64,000 nucleotides of DNA from contig JAFZSI010000076.1 of assembly GCA_017619445.1 (NCBI GenBank), forward strand, positions 41,744 through 105,743. The letters are read 5' to 3'. The stretch's first letter is position 1. Every line of letters starts with the position of its first letter. The position numbers and the translations under genes were made by a program. The stretch is from Prevotella sp. (GTDB taxonomy: Bacteria > Bacteroidota > Bacteroidia > Bacteroidales > Bacteroidaceae). Shown one piece after another: positions 22,241 to 26,596 of the stretch. The notes under the pieces were generated by a model. It was not told the DNA's origin. It saw nothing but the letters and a program-made list of their open reading frames with translations, and did not search any database.

Positions 22241-22248
22241 TAACTTTG
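22241..22248 (+). promoter_or_regulatory. -7 box for the M6 protease gene
   Basis: TAACTTTG in TGCGTAACTTTGCACCCC, very like the metY box. It overlaps a TTG that would otherwise extend the reading frame, so translation must start at ATG 22294. Confidence 0.6.
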
Positions 22249-22293
22249 CACCCCATTTATTTACAAACTATAGTTTATCCACTACATCGAAGT

Positions 22294-24591
22294 ATGAGAA
22301 AAGTATTCATCACCTTGTTACTGATTGGACTGGCCACCACAACCGCACTGGCCATTCCCGCAAAACCCAGCCTATGGAAAACCATCAGACTCGCTAACGG
22401 AACAGAAGTGCGCGCACAACTGCGCGGCGACGAGCACGCTCACTTCTGGCAGGATGCCGACGGCAAATGCTATACCGAGCAGAACGGTGCCTTCGTGCTC
22501 ACCGATGCTGCCACCATTGCCCAAAGGGCTTCTGCACACCGCGCAATAGTTGCCAAAAAACAACAGAAACGCATGAGCAAACTCATGCGACGCTCGCCCC
22601 GCAAAGTGGGCGGAGCCACTGGCAACGACTACACTGGCCCCAAGAAAGGACTCATCATCCTGGTGGATTTCGACGGCACTCCGTTTCAGGAAAGCAACGA
22701 CCAAGAGCTCTTCGACCGAATAGCCAACGAGGAAAACTTCACGCACGAAGAAGGCTTCAAGGGCAGTGTGCACGACTATTTCCTAGCACAGAGCGGCGGA
22801 GTGTTCGACCTGACATTCGACGTTGTGGGTCCCGTTCACCTTGAAAAGCCATATTCCTACTACGGCGCGAATAATTCAAATGGTGATGACAAGAATCCTC
22901 ACATCATGGTGCGTGAAGCCTGCACGGCCGTTGACGAGGATGTGAACTTTGCCGACTACGACTGGGACGGCGATGGCGAGGTCGATCAGGTGTTTGTGCT
23001 CTACGCAGGCATCAACGAAGCAGTGGGCGGCCCGGCCAACACCATCTGGCCACACGAATACTATCTCTCTGGCTATAATACCTGGACCACCGATTACACC
23101 CTCACACTCGATGATGTAAAAATCGACACCTACGCCTGCAGCAGCGAGCTGACCACAGGCTATTCCAACGATTATGTCATCGACGGCATCGGAACCATCT
23201 GCCACGAGTTCTCTCACTGCCTGGGATTCCCCGACTTCTACGACACCGCCGGTGGTGGTAATTTCGGCATGAGTTCATGGGACTTGATGGACCAGGGCAG
23301 CTACAACGGCAGCTATCGCGGCTTTGTGCCCGCAGGCTACTCAAGCTATGAGAAATGGTGCGCAGGATGGTTAGAGCCCATTGAGCTCACCGAGGACACC
23401 GAGGTGACCGACTTGCAACCGCTCAGCGATGGCGGCGATGCCTACGTCATTTACAACGAAGCCCATCCCGACGAGTTCTTCCTCTTAGAGAACCGCCAGA
23501 AAATCAATTGGGATAAAGAACTGCCCGGCAAAGGCCTCTTAGTGATTCATGCCGACTACGACAGCGAGATTTGGGAATGGAACGTTGTCAATACCACCAT
23601 CACCAAAGACAACTATAGATCCTATTACGGTACCTCCTATCCTAATGGAGGTCCGCTCAACGACCACATGAGACTCACCATCGTTCCAGCAGACAACAAG
23701 ACTGGCGCCTATGATATGAGCAAGGATACATACCCCAACAGCAAACTCGACAGTCTGACCAACTATTCGAAACCCGCCTTCACCCTCTACAACGAGAATA
23801 CCGACGGTACGAACCTGCTCAATAAGGGCGTTTACAACATCAAGCAGAACAGCGACAAAACCATCAGCTTCAAGTTCAAGGCCAATCCTTATAACCAGGG
23901 AGTTGACCCCGTTGATCCCGTTGATCCCGTTGACCCCGTTGACCCCGAGATTCCCGAAGAGAACATCATTTTCCATGAGACGTTCGACAAGTGCGACGGC
24001 ACCGGCGGCAACGACGACAAGTGGACCGGCAGCCTGGGGTCGAAGGATAAGTTCAATCCCGACAACGAAGGCTGGCAAACGGGAGCCTATATTCAGTTTG
24101 ACACAAACGTTTCCTACGGATGCGACCGCTGCGCGCGCTTCGGCACCAGCCAGTTGACAGGACTGGTGATGACACCCAACTTCACCCTCAACGGCGAAGC
24201 CAAGTTCGTTGCGAAAATTGCACCTTGGGGCAACGACTCGGAAAACGCAATTCAGATATACTATGCGCCCGAAGGCATCACCGACTCCAACGAGCTGGTG
24301 GAACTCTTCAACGGCAACCTGACCTCGGGTCAGTGGAACGAGATTACGCTCACCGTCAACGGCAACGGAAGCAACTACATCCTCTTCGACCCCAAGCTAC
24401 GTCTGTTCATCGACGATGTAATGATATACATTGAGCAGAACGAAGACCCGACGGGCATCACCAACGCCATACCGAAAGTACAGCCCATCGGAGGGCGCAT
24501 CTACACCCTCGACGGCCGTTTCGCTGGTCTCACGTTCGACTCCCTGCCTCACGGAGTTTATATCATCGACGGGAAGAAAGTAGTTAAATAA
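22294..24591 (+). CDS. Secreted M6-family metalloprotease with sorting tail
   Basis: A 765-residue protein with signal peptide MRKVFITLLLIGLATTTALA. Zinc site HEFSHCLGFPD (His304, Glu305, His308, Asp314) followed by FGMSSWDLMDQGSYNG is the M6 (immune inhibitor A-like) signature; DWDGDGEVDQVFVLYAG is a likely calcium loop. After the catalytic domain comes a linker of four VDP repeats (about residues 535-550), encoded by tandem GTTGA(T/C)CCC units, then a lectin/MAM-like beta domain and the tail IYTLDGRFAGLTFDSLPHGVYIIDGKKVVK-type end, resembling Bacteroidetes type IX sorting tails. It would digest extracellular proteins. Start chosen as above. Confidence 0.88.
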   Translation: MRKVFITLLLIGLATTTALAIPAKPSLWKTIRLANGTEVRAQLRGDEHAHFWQDADGKCYTEQNGAFVLTDAATIAQRASAHRAIVAKKQQKRMSKLMRRSPRKVGGATGNDYTGPKKGLIILVDFDGTPFQESNDQELFDRIANEENFTHEEGFKGSVHDYFLAQSGGVFDLTFDVVGPVHLEKPYSYYGANNSNGDDKNPHIMVREACTAVDEDVNFADYDWDGDGEVDQVFVLYAGINEAVGGPANTIWPHEYYLSGYNTWTTDYTLTLDDVKIDTYACSSELTTGYSNDYVIDGIGTICHEFSHCLGFPDFYDTAGGGNFGMSSWDLMDQGSYNGSYRGFVPAGYSSYEKWCAGWLEPIELTEDTEVTDLQPLSDGGDAYVIYNEAHPDEFFLLENRQKINWDKELPGKGLLVIHADYDSEIWEWNVVNTTITKDNYRSYYGTSYPNGGPLNDHMRLTIVPADNKTGAYDMSKDTYPNSKLDSLTNYSKPAFTLYNENTDGTNLLNKGVYNIKQNSDKTISFKFKANPYNQGVDPVDPVDPVDPVDPEIPEENIIFHETFDKCDGTGGNDDKWTGSLGSKDKFNPDNEGWQTGAYIQFDTNVSYGCDRCARFGTSQLTGLVMTPNFTLNGEAKFVAKIAPWGNDSENAIQIYYAPEGITDSNELVELFNGNLTSGQWNEITLTVNGNGSNYILFDPKLRLFIDDVMIYIEQNEDPTGITNAIPKVQPIGGRIYTLDGRFAGLTFDSLPHGVYIIDGKKVVK

Positions 24592-24761: not shown

Positions 24762-24972
24762 AATTCAGGTTAGAAAATTCAATCGTAAAACCGCGAGATA
24801 AATTTTTATTTCGCGGTTATATTTTTCCAAAGCATTGCGTTAGAAAAACAAACCTATGGGTTACGACAACAACTCACTGCTTTACGAGCAAATTTTCTAG
24901 AGAATTTCAACGTATCTCATAGCGCCCCATTTTGCATGTCGCAGAATGGGGCGCTATTTTTTGCAGTTATTT

Positions 24973-25004
24973 CTTGGAAGTCTCGGTCTTTTTTCATATT
25001 TTTG
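24973..25004 (+). promoter_or_regulatory. Promoter for the lipoprotein / radical SAM operon
   Basis: CTTG (24973-24976), 20-base spacer, TATTTTTG (24997-25004). The predicted leader is about 31 bases. Confidence 0.55.
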
Positions 25005-25041: not shown

Positions 25042-25260
25042 ATGAAGAAACTGTTAATGAAACTGGGCTCAGCCGCACTGCTGATGTTAGGGTTCTCGAG
25101 CTGCATATTCCAGCCCAAGCTCTACGGGTCGCCGCCCTGCCTGTATGGACCGCCGCCAGAGTTCAATGACTCGGTCAACGAAGTGGTTCCCGAGGAAGAA
25201 CAAAGTGCAGAGGGCGACAGCACGACTATCGGTGCCACGTTTAAAGAGGTTAAGGAATGA
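25042..25260 (+). CDS. Radical-SAM-associated small lipoprotein, copy 1
   Basis: A 72-residue protein with a lipoprotein signal (MKKLLMKLGSAALLMLGFSSC, lipid-attachment Cys21). Right after the cysteine come two copies of a short motif: LYGSPP (27-32) and LYGPPPEF (34-41). The rest is acidic (NEVVPEEEQSAEGD). Its stop overlaps the start of the radical SAM gene by 4 bases (ATGA). From memory, such lipoproteins next to SPASM enzymes were described as the rSAM/lipoprotein system (TIGR04133/TIGR04134) in Bacteroidetes; whether the lipoprotein is the substrate is unproven. Expected in the cell envelope, lipid-anchored. Confidence 0.82.
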   Translation: MKKLLMKLGSAALLMLGFSSCIFQPKLYGSPPCLYGPPPEFNDSVNEVVPEEEQSAEGDSTTIGATFKEVKE

Positions 25261-26351
25261 CTGACAGCCACGATTACCACCACCTGGGGCTGCGCAAACG
25301 CGTAGGGCTTGAAATCGCAAGGCTGATGCACAACAACATTGCAAAGGAACACCCGCTGCAACAGTTGTTCTGGGAATCAACGCTGCGCTGCAACCTGCAT
25401 TGTCGCCACTGCGGCAGCGACTGCCGCCGTGAAGCCGGACGTGAGGACATGCCCGTGGAGGATTTCTTGCGGGTACTTGACAGCGTGAGCCGCCACTACG
25501 ACCCGCACAAGGTGTTTGTCATCATCTCGGGCGGCGAACCGCTGATGCGCGACGACCTGGAGCAGTGCGGACGCATGATTTACGAGCGCGGATTTCCGTG
25601 GGGAATGGTCACCAACGGCCTCTATCTGACACCCGAGCGGTTTCGCGGACTGATGGATGCCGGTCTGCACTCCATGACGGTGAGCCTTGACGGTCTGGAG
25701 CAGAGCCACAACTGGATGCGCGGCCACAAAGACAGCTTTGCGCGCGCCTCGGCAGCCATCGACCTGATGGTGGCTGAGCCAAGGCTGGTGTTCGACGTGG
25801 TGACGTGCGTCAACCGCCACAACTACCATGAGCTGGCTGACTTGCGCGAGTTCTTGATTAAGAAGGGTGTACGCCAGTGGCGCGTCATCACCGTCTTCCC
25901 CGTAGGCCGCGCCGCCACCGACAACGACATGCGGCTCTCGGCCAGTCAGTTCAGGGGCGTGATGGACTTCATACGCGAGACCCGAGCCGACGGACGCATC
26001 ATGGCCAGTTACGGCTGCGAAGGATTCTTAGGAAAGTTGGAGCACGACGTGCGCGACTACTTCTACCACTGCGAGGCGGGCATCACCGTGGGCTCCGTAC
26101 TCATAGACGGCAGCATCTCGGCGTGCACAAGCATTCGCTCAAACTACCATCAGGGCAACATCTACAAGGACGACTTCATCGACGTGTGGGAGAACCGCTT
26201 TGAACCCTACCGCAACCACGAGTGGATGCGTCAGGGCGAGTGTGCTGACTGCAAGTTGTTCCGCTATTGTCAGGGCAACGGCATGCACCTGCGCGACGAC
26301 AACGGACAACTGTTATTGTGTAACCTGCATAGACTGGAGGACAAAGAATGA
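25257..26351 (+). CDS. Radical SAM/SPASM enzyme of the rSAM-lipoprotein system
   Basis: A 364-residue enzyme. The S-adenosylmethionine cluster motif CNLHCRHC uses Cys45, Cys49 and Cys52, and SGGEPLMR is the next conserved strand. The C-terminal SPASM domain has the cysteine set CEAG, ACTSIR, GECADCKLFRYCQGN and LLCNLH, enough for one or two auxiliary 4Fe-4S clusters. SPASM enzymes usually modify peptides (thioether or carbon-carbon bonds) or mature other enzymes. Both neighbouring genes encode small lipoproteins with LYGxPP motifs and overlap it by 4 bases on each side, so all three are translated together. The enzyme is cytoplasmic, so any modification must come before export. No peptidase or transporter gene is adjacent. 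Confidence 0.88.
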   Translation: MTDSHDYHHLGLRKRVGLEIARLMHNNIAKEHPLQQLFWESTLRCNLHCRHCGSDCRREAGREDMPVEDFLRVLDSVSRHYDPHKVFVIISGGEPLMRDDLEQCGRMIYERGFPWGMVTNGLYLTPERFRGLMDAGLHSMTVSLDGLEQSHNWMRGHKDSFARASAAIDLMVAEPRLVFDVVTCVNRHNYHELADLREFLIKKGVRQWRVITVFPVGRAATDNDMRLSASQFRGVMDFIRETRADGRIMASYGCEGFLGKLEHDVRDYFYHCEAGITVGSVLIDGSISACTSIRSNYHQGNIYKDDFIDVWENRFEPYRNHEWMRQGECADCKLFRYCQGNGMHLRDDNGQLLLCNLHRLEDKE

Positions 26352-26596
26352 AAAAGAACATACTTCATGCCATCAACAGTATTCTGGGCAGCTTGTTAGT
26401 GCTGCTCGGCTTCACCTCGTGCAAGACCACCTCAAGCAGCCAGAGCAGTAGCAACGAAGCGCCGGTTATCATTGAGAATCCACCCCAAAAACTGCTCTAC
26501 GGCGCACCACCCGCGGAGTACAGATATCCAGGCAAGTCAGAACCGAAGAAAACGCTCTACGGTCCTCCTCCCAGCGTTTACCGAGAAACGAGGTAG
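26348..26596 (+). CDS. Radical-SAM-associated small lipoprotein, copy 2
   Basis: An 82-residue lipoprotein; signal ending LLGFTSC with lipid-attachment Cys25, a Ser/Thr/Gln-rich spacer, then two repeats 20 residues apart, LYGAPPAEY (50-58) and LYGPPPSVY (70-78). The second stands almost at the C-terminus (RETR follows). It shares the motif but little else with the 72-residue lipoprotein on the other side of the radical SAM gene. Its ATG overlaps the radical SAM stop (ATGA). Followed by a very strong inverted repeat that probably ends the operon. Confidence 0.82.
   Translation: MKKNILHAINSILGSLLVLLGFTSCKTTSSSQSSSNEAPVIIENPPQKLLYGAPPAEYRYPGKSEPKKTLYGPPPSVYRETR

Follow-up and report, generated by a model that had tools for sequence, protein, structure and literature searches.

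In cyanobacterial peptides, spliceases of the PlpX type excise tyramine from the backbone at X-Tyr-Gly sites: LYG and MYG are natural sites in the case of PlpXY (PMC10533398), and PlpX, studied together with PlpY, is reported to act on Xaa-Tyr-Gly (PMC11002830). The present analysis deals with a stretch of DNA from Prevotella sp. (64,000 nucleotides of contig JAFZSI010000076.1, referred to below as the window), in which a tight operon of three genes on the + strand encodes a lipoprotein (A), a radical SAM/SPASM enzyme belonging to the NCBIfam family TIGR04133, and a second lipoprotein (B). The family TIGR04103 (nif11-class peptide radical SAM maturase 3), with which this enzyme is compared here, is taken to be that of PlpX, and its gene order and cores match. 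The TIGR04133 enzyme very probably modifies the tyrosine of an X-Tyr-Gly-x-Pro motif found in its partners, and the best reading of its chemistry, to which we give a probability of about 0.6 based on homology and on the motif, is tyramine excision by a leaderless splicease acting on lipoproteins.

The Tyr-Gly-x-Pro motif in the operon and across the family

Lipoproteins A (25042..25260, + strand, 72 amino acids) and B (26348..26596, + strand, 82 amino acids), the predicted substrates, flank the enzyme gene (25257..26351, + strand, 364 amino acids), and the 4 bases ATGA are shared at both junctions (25257-25260 and 26348-26351). The lipid-bearing cysteine of A (Cys21) is followed by LYGSPP (motif A1, 25120..25137) and LYGPPP (A2, 25141..25158), and that of B (Cys25) by LYGAPPAEY (B1, 26495..26521) and LYGPPPSVY (B2, 26555..26581), all on the + strand. 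The layout given in a preliminary description of this locus, with 4-base overlaps, lipoproteins of 72 and 82 residues, and two motifs in each, is borne out by these coordinates; the aromatic residue it placed seven positions after the tyrosine is present in LYGSPPCLY, LYGAPPAEY, and LYGPPPSVY, and is missing from the fourth motif, LYGPPPEFN. The statement that A and B have only the motif in common does not hold, since the end of the signal peptide is also common to both (MLGFSSC and LLGFTSC) and is conserved family-wide; the elements LGFSSC, which we propose to be a recognition (leader) element for the enzyme, and LGFTSC are located at 25087..25104 and 26405..26422, respectively (+ strand). 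The motif tyrosines of the pair lie 7, 14, 26, and 46 residues from the lipid cysteine, and when the mature proteins were shuffled 20,000 times, two LYGxPP in each were obtained in no case and any LYGxPP in 15. Both lipoproteins scored below the TIGR04134 cut-off (15.7 and 21.3 bits versus 39.8), matching in the signal region only, and no family was identified in them by a Pfam scan. At the place where precursors of ribosomally synthesized and post-translationally modified peptides carry a Nif11 or NHLP leader before the core, they carry a lipoprotein signal instead. The window is of no use as a background rate, because the lipobox detector gave just four candidates in its 64 kb, two of them being A and B.

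The survey of the family included 125 TIGR04133 loci, 65 from genome searches and 60 taken out of a longer set of matches. The lipobox detector, which is blind to the motif, is crude: a first regular expression missed 42 of the 125 loci, and a second one was used for the counts. At 97 loci, 137 predicted lipoproteins are contiguous with the enzyme; after the lipid cysteine, 125 of them (at 96 loci) show Y[GS]x(1,2)P, and 123 show YGx(1,2)P, which occurs in 152 instances; 1000 shuffles gave 5.5 such proteins on average and never more than 13. Most of the 12 proteins without Y[GS]x(1,2)P are simply encoded next door, for instance a piece resembling MutS by eye, and one of the 12 (L097) reads LYGPLLP. 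In the 152 instances, the tyrosine is preceded by M (46), E (45), L (24), V (19), or C (8), and YG is followed by T (38), P (35), V (29), S (17), G (13), A, or others; proline occurs at +3 in 128, a count biased by the search pattern, which required it at +3 or +4, and an aromatic residue occurs at +7 in 100 (Y in 69 and F in 31). The first motif lies at a median distance of 13 residues past the lipid cysteine. Across the family, the LYGxPP first described widens to [M/E/L/V/C]-Y-G-x-P. As to the question, raised in the preliminary description, of whether LYGxPP is the sole conserved part of the lipoproteins at homologous loci, YGxP does persist, and LLGFxSC recurs too. The bodies of the partners vary: by eye they consist of short tails or coiled coils, TonB_C is clear in both partners tested for it, and the CarboxypepD_reg match in the one partner tested is weak (E 0.0045, below the Pfam cut-off). 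What stays constant among partners that differ in the rest of their sequence is the motif.

The 29 loci where the detector gave no motif lipoprotein were read by eye. A motif protein lies beside the enzyme or is fused to it at seven of them (L005, L008, L019, L058, L077, L079, and L087, the lipobox of the last being unclear), and non-lipoproteins carrying YGPP or YGGPP adjoin the enzyme at five of the 125 loci (L106, L112, L114, L116, and L118). A motif lipoprotein was found in trans in seven genomes with no motif gene beside the enzyme (G482, G510, G878, G589, G607, G568, and G667), that of G607 being broken by a frameshift, and a candidate partner in trans in an eighth (G820), a kinase with two VYGPPP. 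The trans profile was derived from 16 lipoproteins and applied to a selection of 16 genomes, in which the best-matching loci were read. Three further loci (L091, L120, and L123) are second copies, the first copies of which (L090, L073, and L069) have a motif lipoprotein in the same genome. Altogether, a motif protein was found in cis or in trans for 116 of the 125 loci, and is a lipoprotein or lipoprotein-like in 110 of these. The display of the motif on lipid-anchored proteins, as previously suggested, fits most loci; lipidation is not a requirement, however, since at five of the 125 the motif proteins carry no lipoprotein signal. The AMYGVPPTQF of G681 was rejected as a partner, this being the end of a 500-residue frame that looks by eye like a sensor-regulator.

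Several loci have additional features. The G820 kinase (L298, 526-2928) is an 800-residue protein with kinase and FGE-sulfatase domains, and the frames 5' of the enzyme at L116 and L118 are also kinase-like by eye. At L114 (18-533, numbered with the enzyme on the + strand; genome G856), a protein of 171 residues with no Pfam match and no lipoprotein signal carries VYGPPEWFD near its end and adjoins TIGR04133. The lipoprotein and the enzyme occupy a single open reading frame at L058 (lipoprotein first) and L077 (lipoprotein last), which may be natural fusions or the result of lost stops. At nine loci (L091, L095, L099, L101, L102, L119, L120, L122, and L123), the gene overlapping or abutting that of TIGR04133 is not a lipoprotein gene but one encoding a membrane protein resembling CorC/CNNM by eye.

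The only other element recurring across lipoprotein types is LLGFxSC. The signal contains LG[FYLIVMC] in 111 of the 125 motif-bearing lipoproteins, versus 1 of the 12 motif-less ones, and in 88 of these 111 the leucine lies exactly five residues before the cysteine (LLGFxSC). In the CYG lipoproteins, where the lipid cysteine directly precedes the tyrosine (for example L016, L084, and L010), LLGFSS or LGIGS is kept 11-14 residues before the cysteine, and LLGFxSC is therefore more than a lipobox. The chances seem to us to be evenly balanced that it is the recognition element of the enzyme, the signal peptide serving as a leader.

Genomes lacking the enzyme were also analyzed. Absence was defined as no match at E 1e-80, and is provisional because the initial family scan scored at most five candidates per genome; a repeat search of five genomes, with the protein of the window as the query, gave no enzyme at E 1e-30. 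A TIGR04134-type lipoprotein scores above the cut-off in 51 of 399 genomes of the family (46 of them with TIGR04133), 27 of the 109 genomes from a second genus (TIGR04133 being present in 23), and 15 of 150 genomes of the genus of the window (14 with TIGR04133); these cross-counts were made by hand, and 7 of the 27 second-genus genomes are also in the family set. In three genomes with no detected enzyme, the motif has decayed. G802 and G813 are each 99% complete and in one contig. G802 reads SENCTSYAKY where a close relative has CEYGTPYAKY, G813 reads ENYAEHTLKG versus CMYGSPYALHTIKG (the motif region of the relative being CMYGSPYALHT), and G614 (94% complete) reads APEHGTPS versus EYGTPS, with Tyr alone replaced by His. 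The orphan lipoproteins of G802 and G813 are located between genes named by eye as acs-like and comM-like, and genes of these two kinds flank both lipoprotein and enzyme at L038, L040, L068, and L235. Where a genome with the enzyme has a second copy of the lipoprotein, this copy retains the motif in G878, G720, G752, and G490. The fifth enzyme-less genome of the family set, G817, was discarded as a spurious TIGR04134 case, the match being a protein of 613 residues with a carboxypeptidase-regulatory-like start. The decay of the motif in enzyme-less genomes is suggestive, although short of decisive. The earlier proposal that the motif is the site of modification is very likely to be correct, in view of its constancy in differing partners, the trans partners in seven genomes, and its decay in these three.

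The enzyme and its relatives

The enzyme of the window matches the TIGR04133 model (rSAM_w_lipo) over positions 1-350 of 350 with 585.3 bits (cut-off 425), along with Pfam Radical_SAM and SPASM. Of the two families named in the preliminary description for a pairing of this type (TIGR04133/TIGR04134), that of the enzyme is correct, and the lipoproteins remain below their cut-off. The status of TIGR04133 in NCBIfam is 'hypothetical equivalog'. The family is present in 116 of the 399 sampled genomes of the family of the window, and in the window genome (2.87 Mb, 85% complete) there is one such gene. Named records carrying it include Phocaeicola massiliensis, Parabacteroides distasonis, and Treponema saccharophilum; plasmid pTS1 of the latter, which is outside Bacteroidota, carries TIGR04133 and a CYGMP lipoprotein (L127, 4613-6089). 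No chemistry was found for TIGR04133 in the literature searched, although a 2022 survey of spliceases outside that search may cover the family (Scott 2022, Chem), and the TIGR04133/TIGR04134 system is not mentioned in the accessible parts of PMC10533398, PMC12710340, PMC11002830, PMC11117315, PMC10885120, PMC8326336, PMC10434189, and PMC10352776.

The radical SAM cluster CX3CX2C previously noted was found in the form CNLHCRHC (C45, C49, and C52; 25389..25412, + strand). The SPASM region (C272 to C355; 26070..26321, + strand) contains C272, C290, C329, C332, C338, and C355, and is not the full cysteine set that had been reported: the fourth cysteine of CX2CX5CX3C, the SPASM consensus, is replaced by Gly342. 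Three further cysteines, C56, C184, and C254, are invariant in 62 aligned members, and C254 adjoins the block G256-x2-G259-x2-E262-x3-R266 (26022..26054, + strand). The AlphaFold2 model (predicted local distance difference test, pLDDT, 93.8) shows an N-terminal helix (residues 12-31) ahead of CX3CX2C, and the closest solved folds are those of SuiB, SkfB, BlsE, anSME, and PqqE, all radical SAM enzymes. A model of a TIGR04103-type protein, with a pLDDT of 65.6, was rejected as a basis for comparing active sites.

Trees and signature residues were used to place the enzyme because profile scores alone do not favour TIGR04103: the score against this family is 106.2 bits, far below the cut-off of 725, and the ranking was rejected as proof of kinship, as several SPASM families obtain comparable NCBIfam bits. 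A first tree was made from 57 SPASM proteins (29 TIGR04133, 12 TIGR04103-type, 4 TIGR03913 or like it, 1 from Agathobacter, and 11 others); in it, TIGR04133, the TIGR04103-type and TIGR03913-type proteins, and the Agathobacter protein are all on one side of a branch with support of 100/100, and the 11 others are on the other side. The same split was obtained with support of 95/82 when five long rows were removed (52 rows), and constraining TIGR04133 to group with an AhbD-like row in the latter tree was weakly rejected (approximately unbiased test, p 0.034). Profile-profile comparison aligned TIGR04133 and TIGR04103 over 327 columns with a probability of 99.9. The residues kept in both TIGR04133 (28 rows) and the TIGR04103/TIGR03913-type group (17 rows) were counted in 11 other SPASM proteins: Gly53, which follows CX3CX2C, and Ser292 occur in none of them, and G256, G259, E262, and R266 of the block in 0, 1, 0, and 2, respectively.

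The main rival to tyramine excision is a crosslink, in the form of a cyclophane or another C-C or C-O bond between the aromatic ring of Tyr and a carbon atom of either x or Pro, whereby a rigid loop would be displayed. The fact that SPASM peptide enzymes often make crosslinks and that SuiB, one such enzyme, is among the nearest folds speaks in its favour, as does the identity of the conserved positions, which are Tyr, Gly, and Pro. However, the residue after YG is variable, as listed above, and is a glycine, which has no beta carbon, in 13 of the 152 motifs; this argues against a triceptide-type cyclophane, in which an aromatic residue is joined to the beta carbon two residues on. A thioether is also unlikely, because no cysteine past the lipid cysteine recurs in 16 aligned lipoproteins. 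The signature of the enzyme and the XYG context point instead to an enzyme of the splicease kind, and the crosslink suggested in the preliminary description, which is no longer the best guess, seems to us to be unlikely.

The proposed reaction and its alternatives

As a tyramine splicease, the TIGR04133 enzyme would act in the cytosol, before the lipoprotein is exported; it would recognize the signal peptide (LLGFxSC) as a leader and act on each downstream X-Tyr-Gly-x-Pro motif, where a portion of the tyrosine would be excised and the backbone ligated again, with a loss of about 135.07 Da per site. The edited proteins would then be exported and lipidated, and with editing preceding these steps, each lipoprotein could carry up to two reactive ketoamides. 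The product would be a surface ketoamide, a group linked to protease inhibition and usable for selective labelling (PMC11002830, PMC11117315, and PMC10533398). We would guess that an electrophile held at the surface might serve, for example, as a protease trap or as a point of covalent attachment. More tentatively, and with slightly less than even odds, tyramine splicing may be a standing modification of the envelope in Bacteroidota, and in some Spirochaetota as well, the lipoprotein signal peptide being used as the leader and alpha-keto-beta-amino acids being present in many lipoproteins and, in a subclade, in non-lipidated proteins. If this is so, backbone editing, which has been shown in the case of cyanobacterial peptides, would also occur on the anchored proteins of a widespread group, and the normal cell surface of these bacteria, including species of the gut, would contain backbone-edited electrophilic proteins. 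The single mass shift predicted by the splicease reading might be visible in existing proteomes.

Various points weigh against this interpretation. The profile scores of the window enzyme are higher with TIGR04053 (125 bits), AhbD (122), and NirJ2 (118) than with TIGR04103 (106), and the SPASM trees have long inner branches, about the meeting of which the program issued a warning, with just 11 (57-row tree) or 8 (52-row tree) rows from other families. One SPASM cysteine, corresponding to C329 of the Nostoc-type protein, is present in all of 26 aligned TIGR04103 proteins and missing from TIGR04133, and judging from the gene order there is no PlpY-like gene in the three-gene operon, where no sequence search for PlpY was made. 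E precedes the tyrosine in 45 of the 152 lipoprotein motifs and is not among the nine commonest residues at this position in the cyanobacterial cores, where YGxP is a minority (30 of 194 sites, and YGxPP 10). The tags in PMC10533398 read PIRP(L/G)YGLPI, which we take to be modelled on the PlpA2 core; PlpXY did not accept PIRPLYGLPI when it was inserted into FtsZ, and the two placements that it did accept contained GYG, with a longer or different context. The assignment of PlpX to TIGR04103 is itself presumptive. A motif reads YS instead of YG at L059, L061, L082, L083, and L096, and the motif has been lost from second lipoprotein copies in two enzyme-positive genomes (G698 and G456). Six of the 125 loci (L110, L113, L119, L121, L122, and L124) have no motif partner in cis or among the best trans matches. 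Lastly, the motif is kept with no detected enzyme in G938, G981, and G530 (82-89% complete), the first two being near-identical at the lipoprotein gene, and, in the form EYGTP, in G545, where it lies beside an N run in which the enzyme gene could be located. The enzyme without a motif, which had been named in advance as the observation that would tell against the motif, was looked for, and these six loci are the outcome.

The six loci and the four genomes would also fit the idea that the lipoproteins use the motif as a signal for binding or export and that the target of the enzyme is something else. We consider this improbable, however, given the overlap between the enzyme and lipoprotein genes at many loci, the two apparent single reading frames, the trans partners in seven genomes, the loss of the motif from three near-complete enzyme-less genomes, and the occurrence of the same motif in non-lipoproteins beside TIGR04133. 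Somewhat less improbable, although still rather unlikely, is another modification of the motif, such as hydroxylation, epimerization, methylation, or cleavage of the Tyr side chain without rejoining: SPASM enzymes carry out many chemistries, and the scores with heme and mycofactocin enzymes are about equal to that obtained with TIGR04103, whereas the GxxGxxExxxR block speaks for an enzyme of the splicease kind, as does the XYG context.

Upstream of the operon (22246-24591) there is a gene for a metalloprotease of the M6 family (Pfam Peptidase_M6) that contains a VDP repeat, and about 85 bases 5' of lipoprotein A there is a hairpin of 17 pairs followed by a T-run (24919-24957). The hairpin could be either the upstream terminator or an attenuator, although shuffled sequence yields sites of this kind no less often. 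At 24997-25004, TATTTTTG fits by eye the Bacteroidota -7 consensus. Between lipoprotein B and the convergent clpB there is an inverted repeat (26611-26655/26683-26727) of 45 nucleotides, 93% complementary, with a spacer of 27 nucleotides; a 21-base probe from it matches only its two arms within the window.

Comparison with known systems

The solved enzymes SuiB, SkfB, and anSME resemble the window enzyme in their fold (TM-score 0.64-0.69, normalized by the query) and differ from it in their sequence (18-20% identity), as well as in their substrates and chemistry. In NCBIfam, of which the window enzyme is a clear TIGR04133 member, both the name of the family and its pairing with TIGR04134 are labelled hypothetical. 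The TIGR03913 GDL-motif maturases, which are on the same side of the tree as TIGR04133, are accompanied by DUF1843 peptides having LYG or PYG near their start in 6 of 11 cases; these peptides differ in that they are small and soluble, with YA or YM in the other 5 of the 11, and Pro at +3 in none of the 6 YG sites.

A further close system is that of PlpX/TIGR04103. The cyanobacterial set consists of the best 80 of 198 TIGR04103-type loci, at 75 of which a crude test called leader-like upstream open reading frames with YG (116 frames, 194 XYG sites); L (86) and M (48) are the residues most often found before YG. On a Nostoc plasmid, for instance, the TIGR04103 enzyme has a Nif11 precursor ending in LYGLPPELF on its 5' side and a 71-residue open reading frame on its 3' side. 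As with TIGR04133, a SPASM radical SAM enzyme is encoded beside its substrate, the partner carries X-Tyr-Gly sites (four LYG sites in the window pair, and 152 YGx(1,2)P in the 137 lipoproteins), cores with YGxP and YGxPP occur, and the GxxGxxExxxR block and CX3CX2CG are common to both enzymes. Position +7 is aromatic in the cyanobacterial PYGLPPNLF and MYGLPPDRF, as it is in the majority of the motifs of the lipoproteins.

The two systems differ in their substrates, which are lipoproteins with export signals in the case of TIGR04133 and precursors with Nif11/NHLP leaders in that of TIGR04103, and in the frequency of Pro at +3 (128 of 152 versus 30 of 194). In addition, CX3CX2C starts at residue 45 of the window enzyme, after the N-terminal helix, versus residue 19 of the Nostoc protein, and TIGR04133 has no C-terminal extension, unlike TIGR04103. 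In view of the missing SPASM cysteine, the other invariant cysteines, the N-terminal helix, and the lack of a PlpY-like gene, TIGR04133 is therefore best described as a variant rather than a member of TIGR04103; it is a matter of speculation whether its N-terminal helix, as predicted in the model, may stand in for PlpY.

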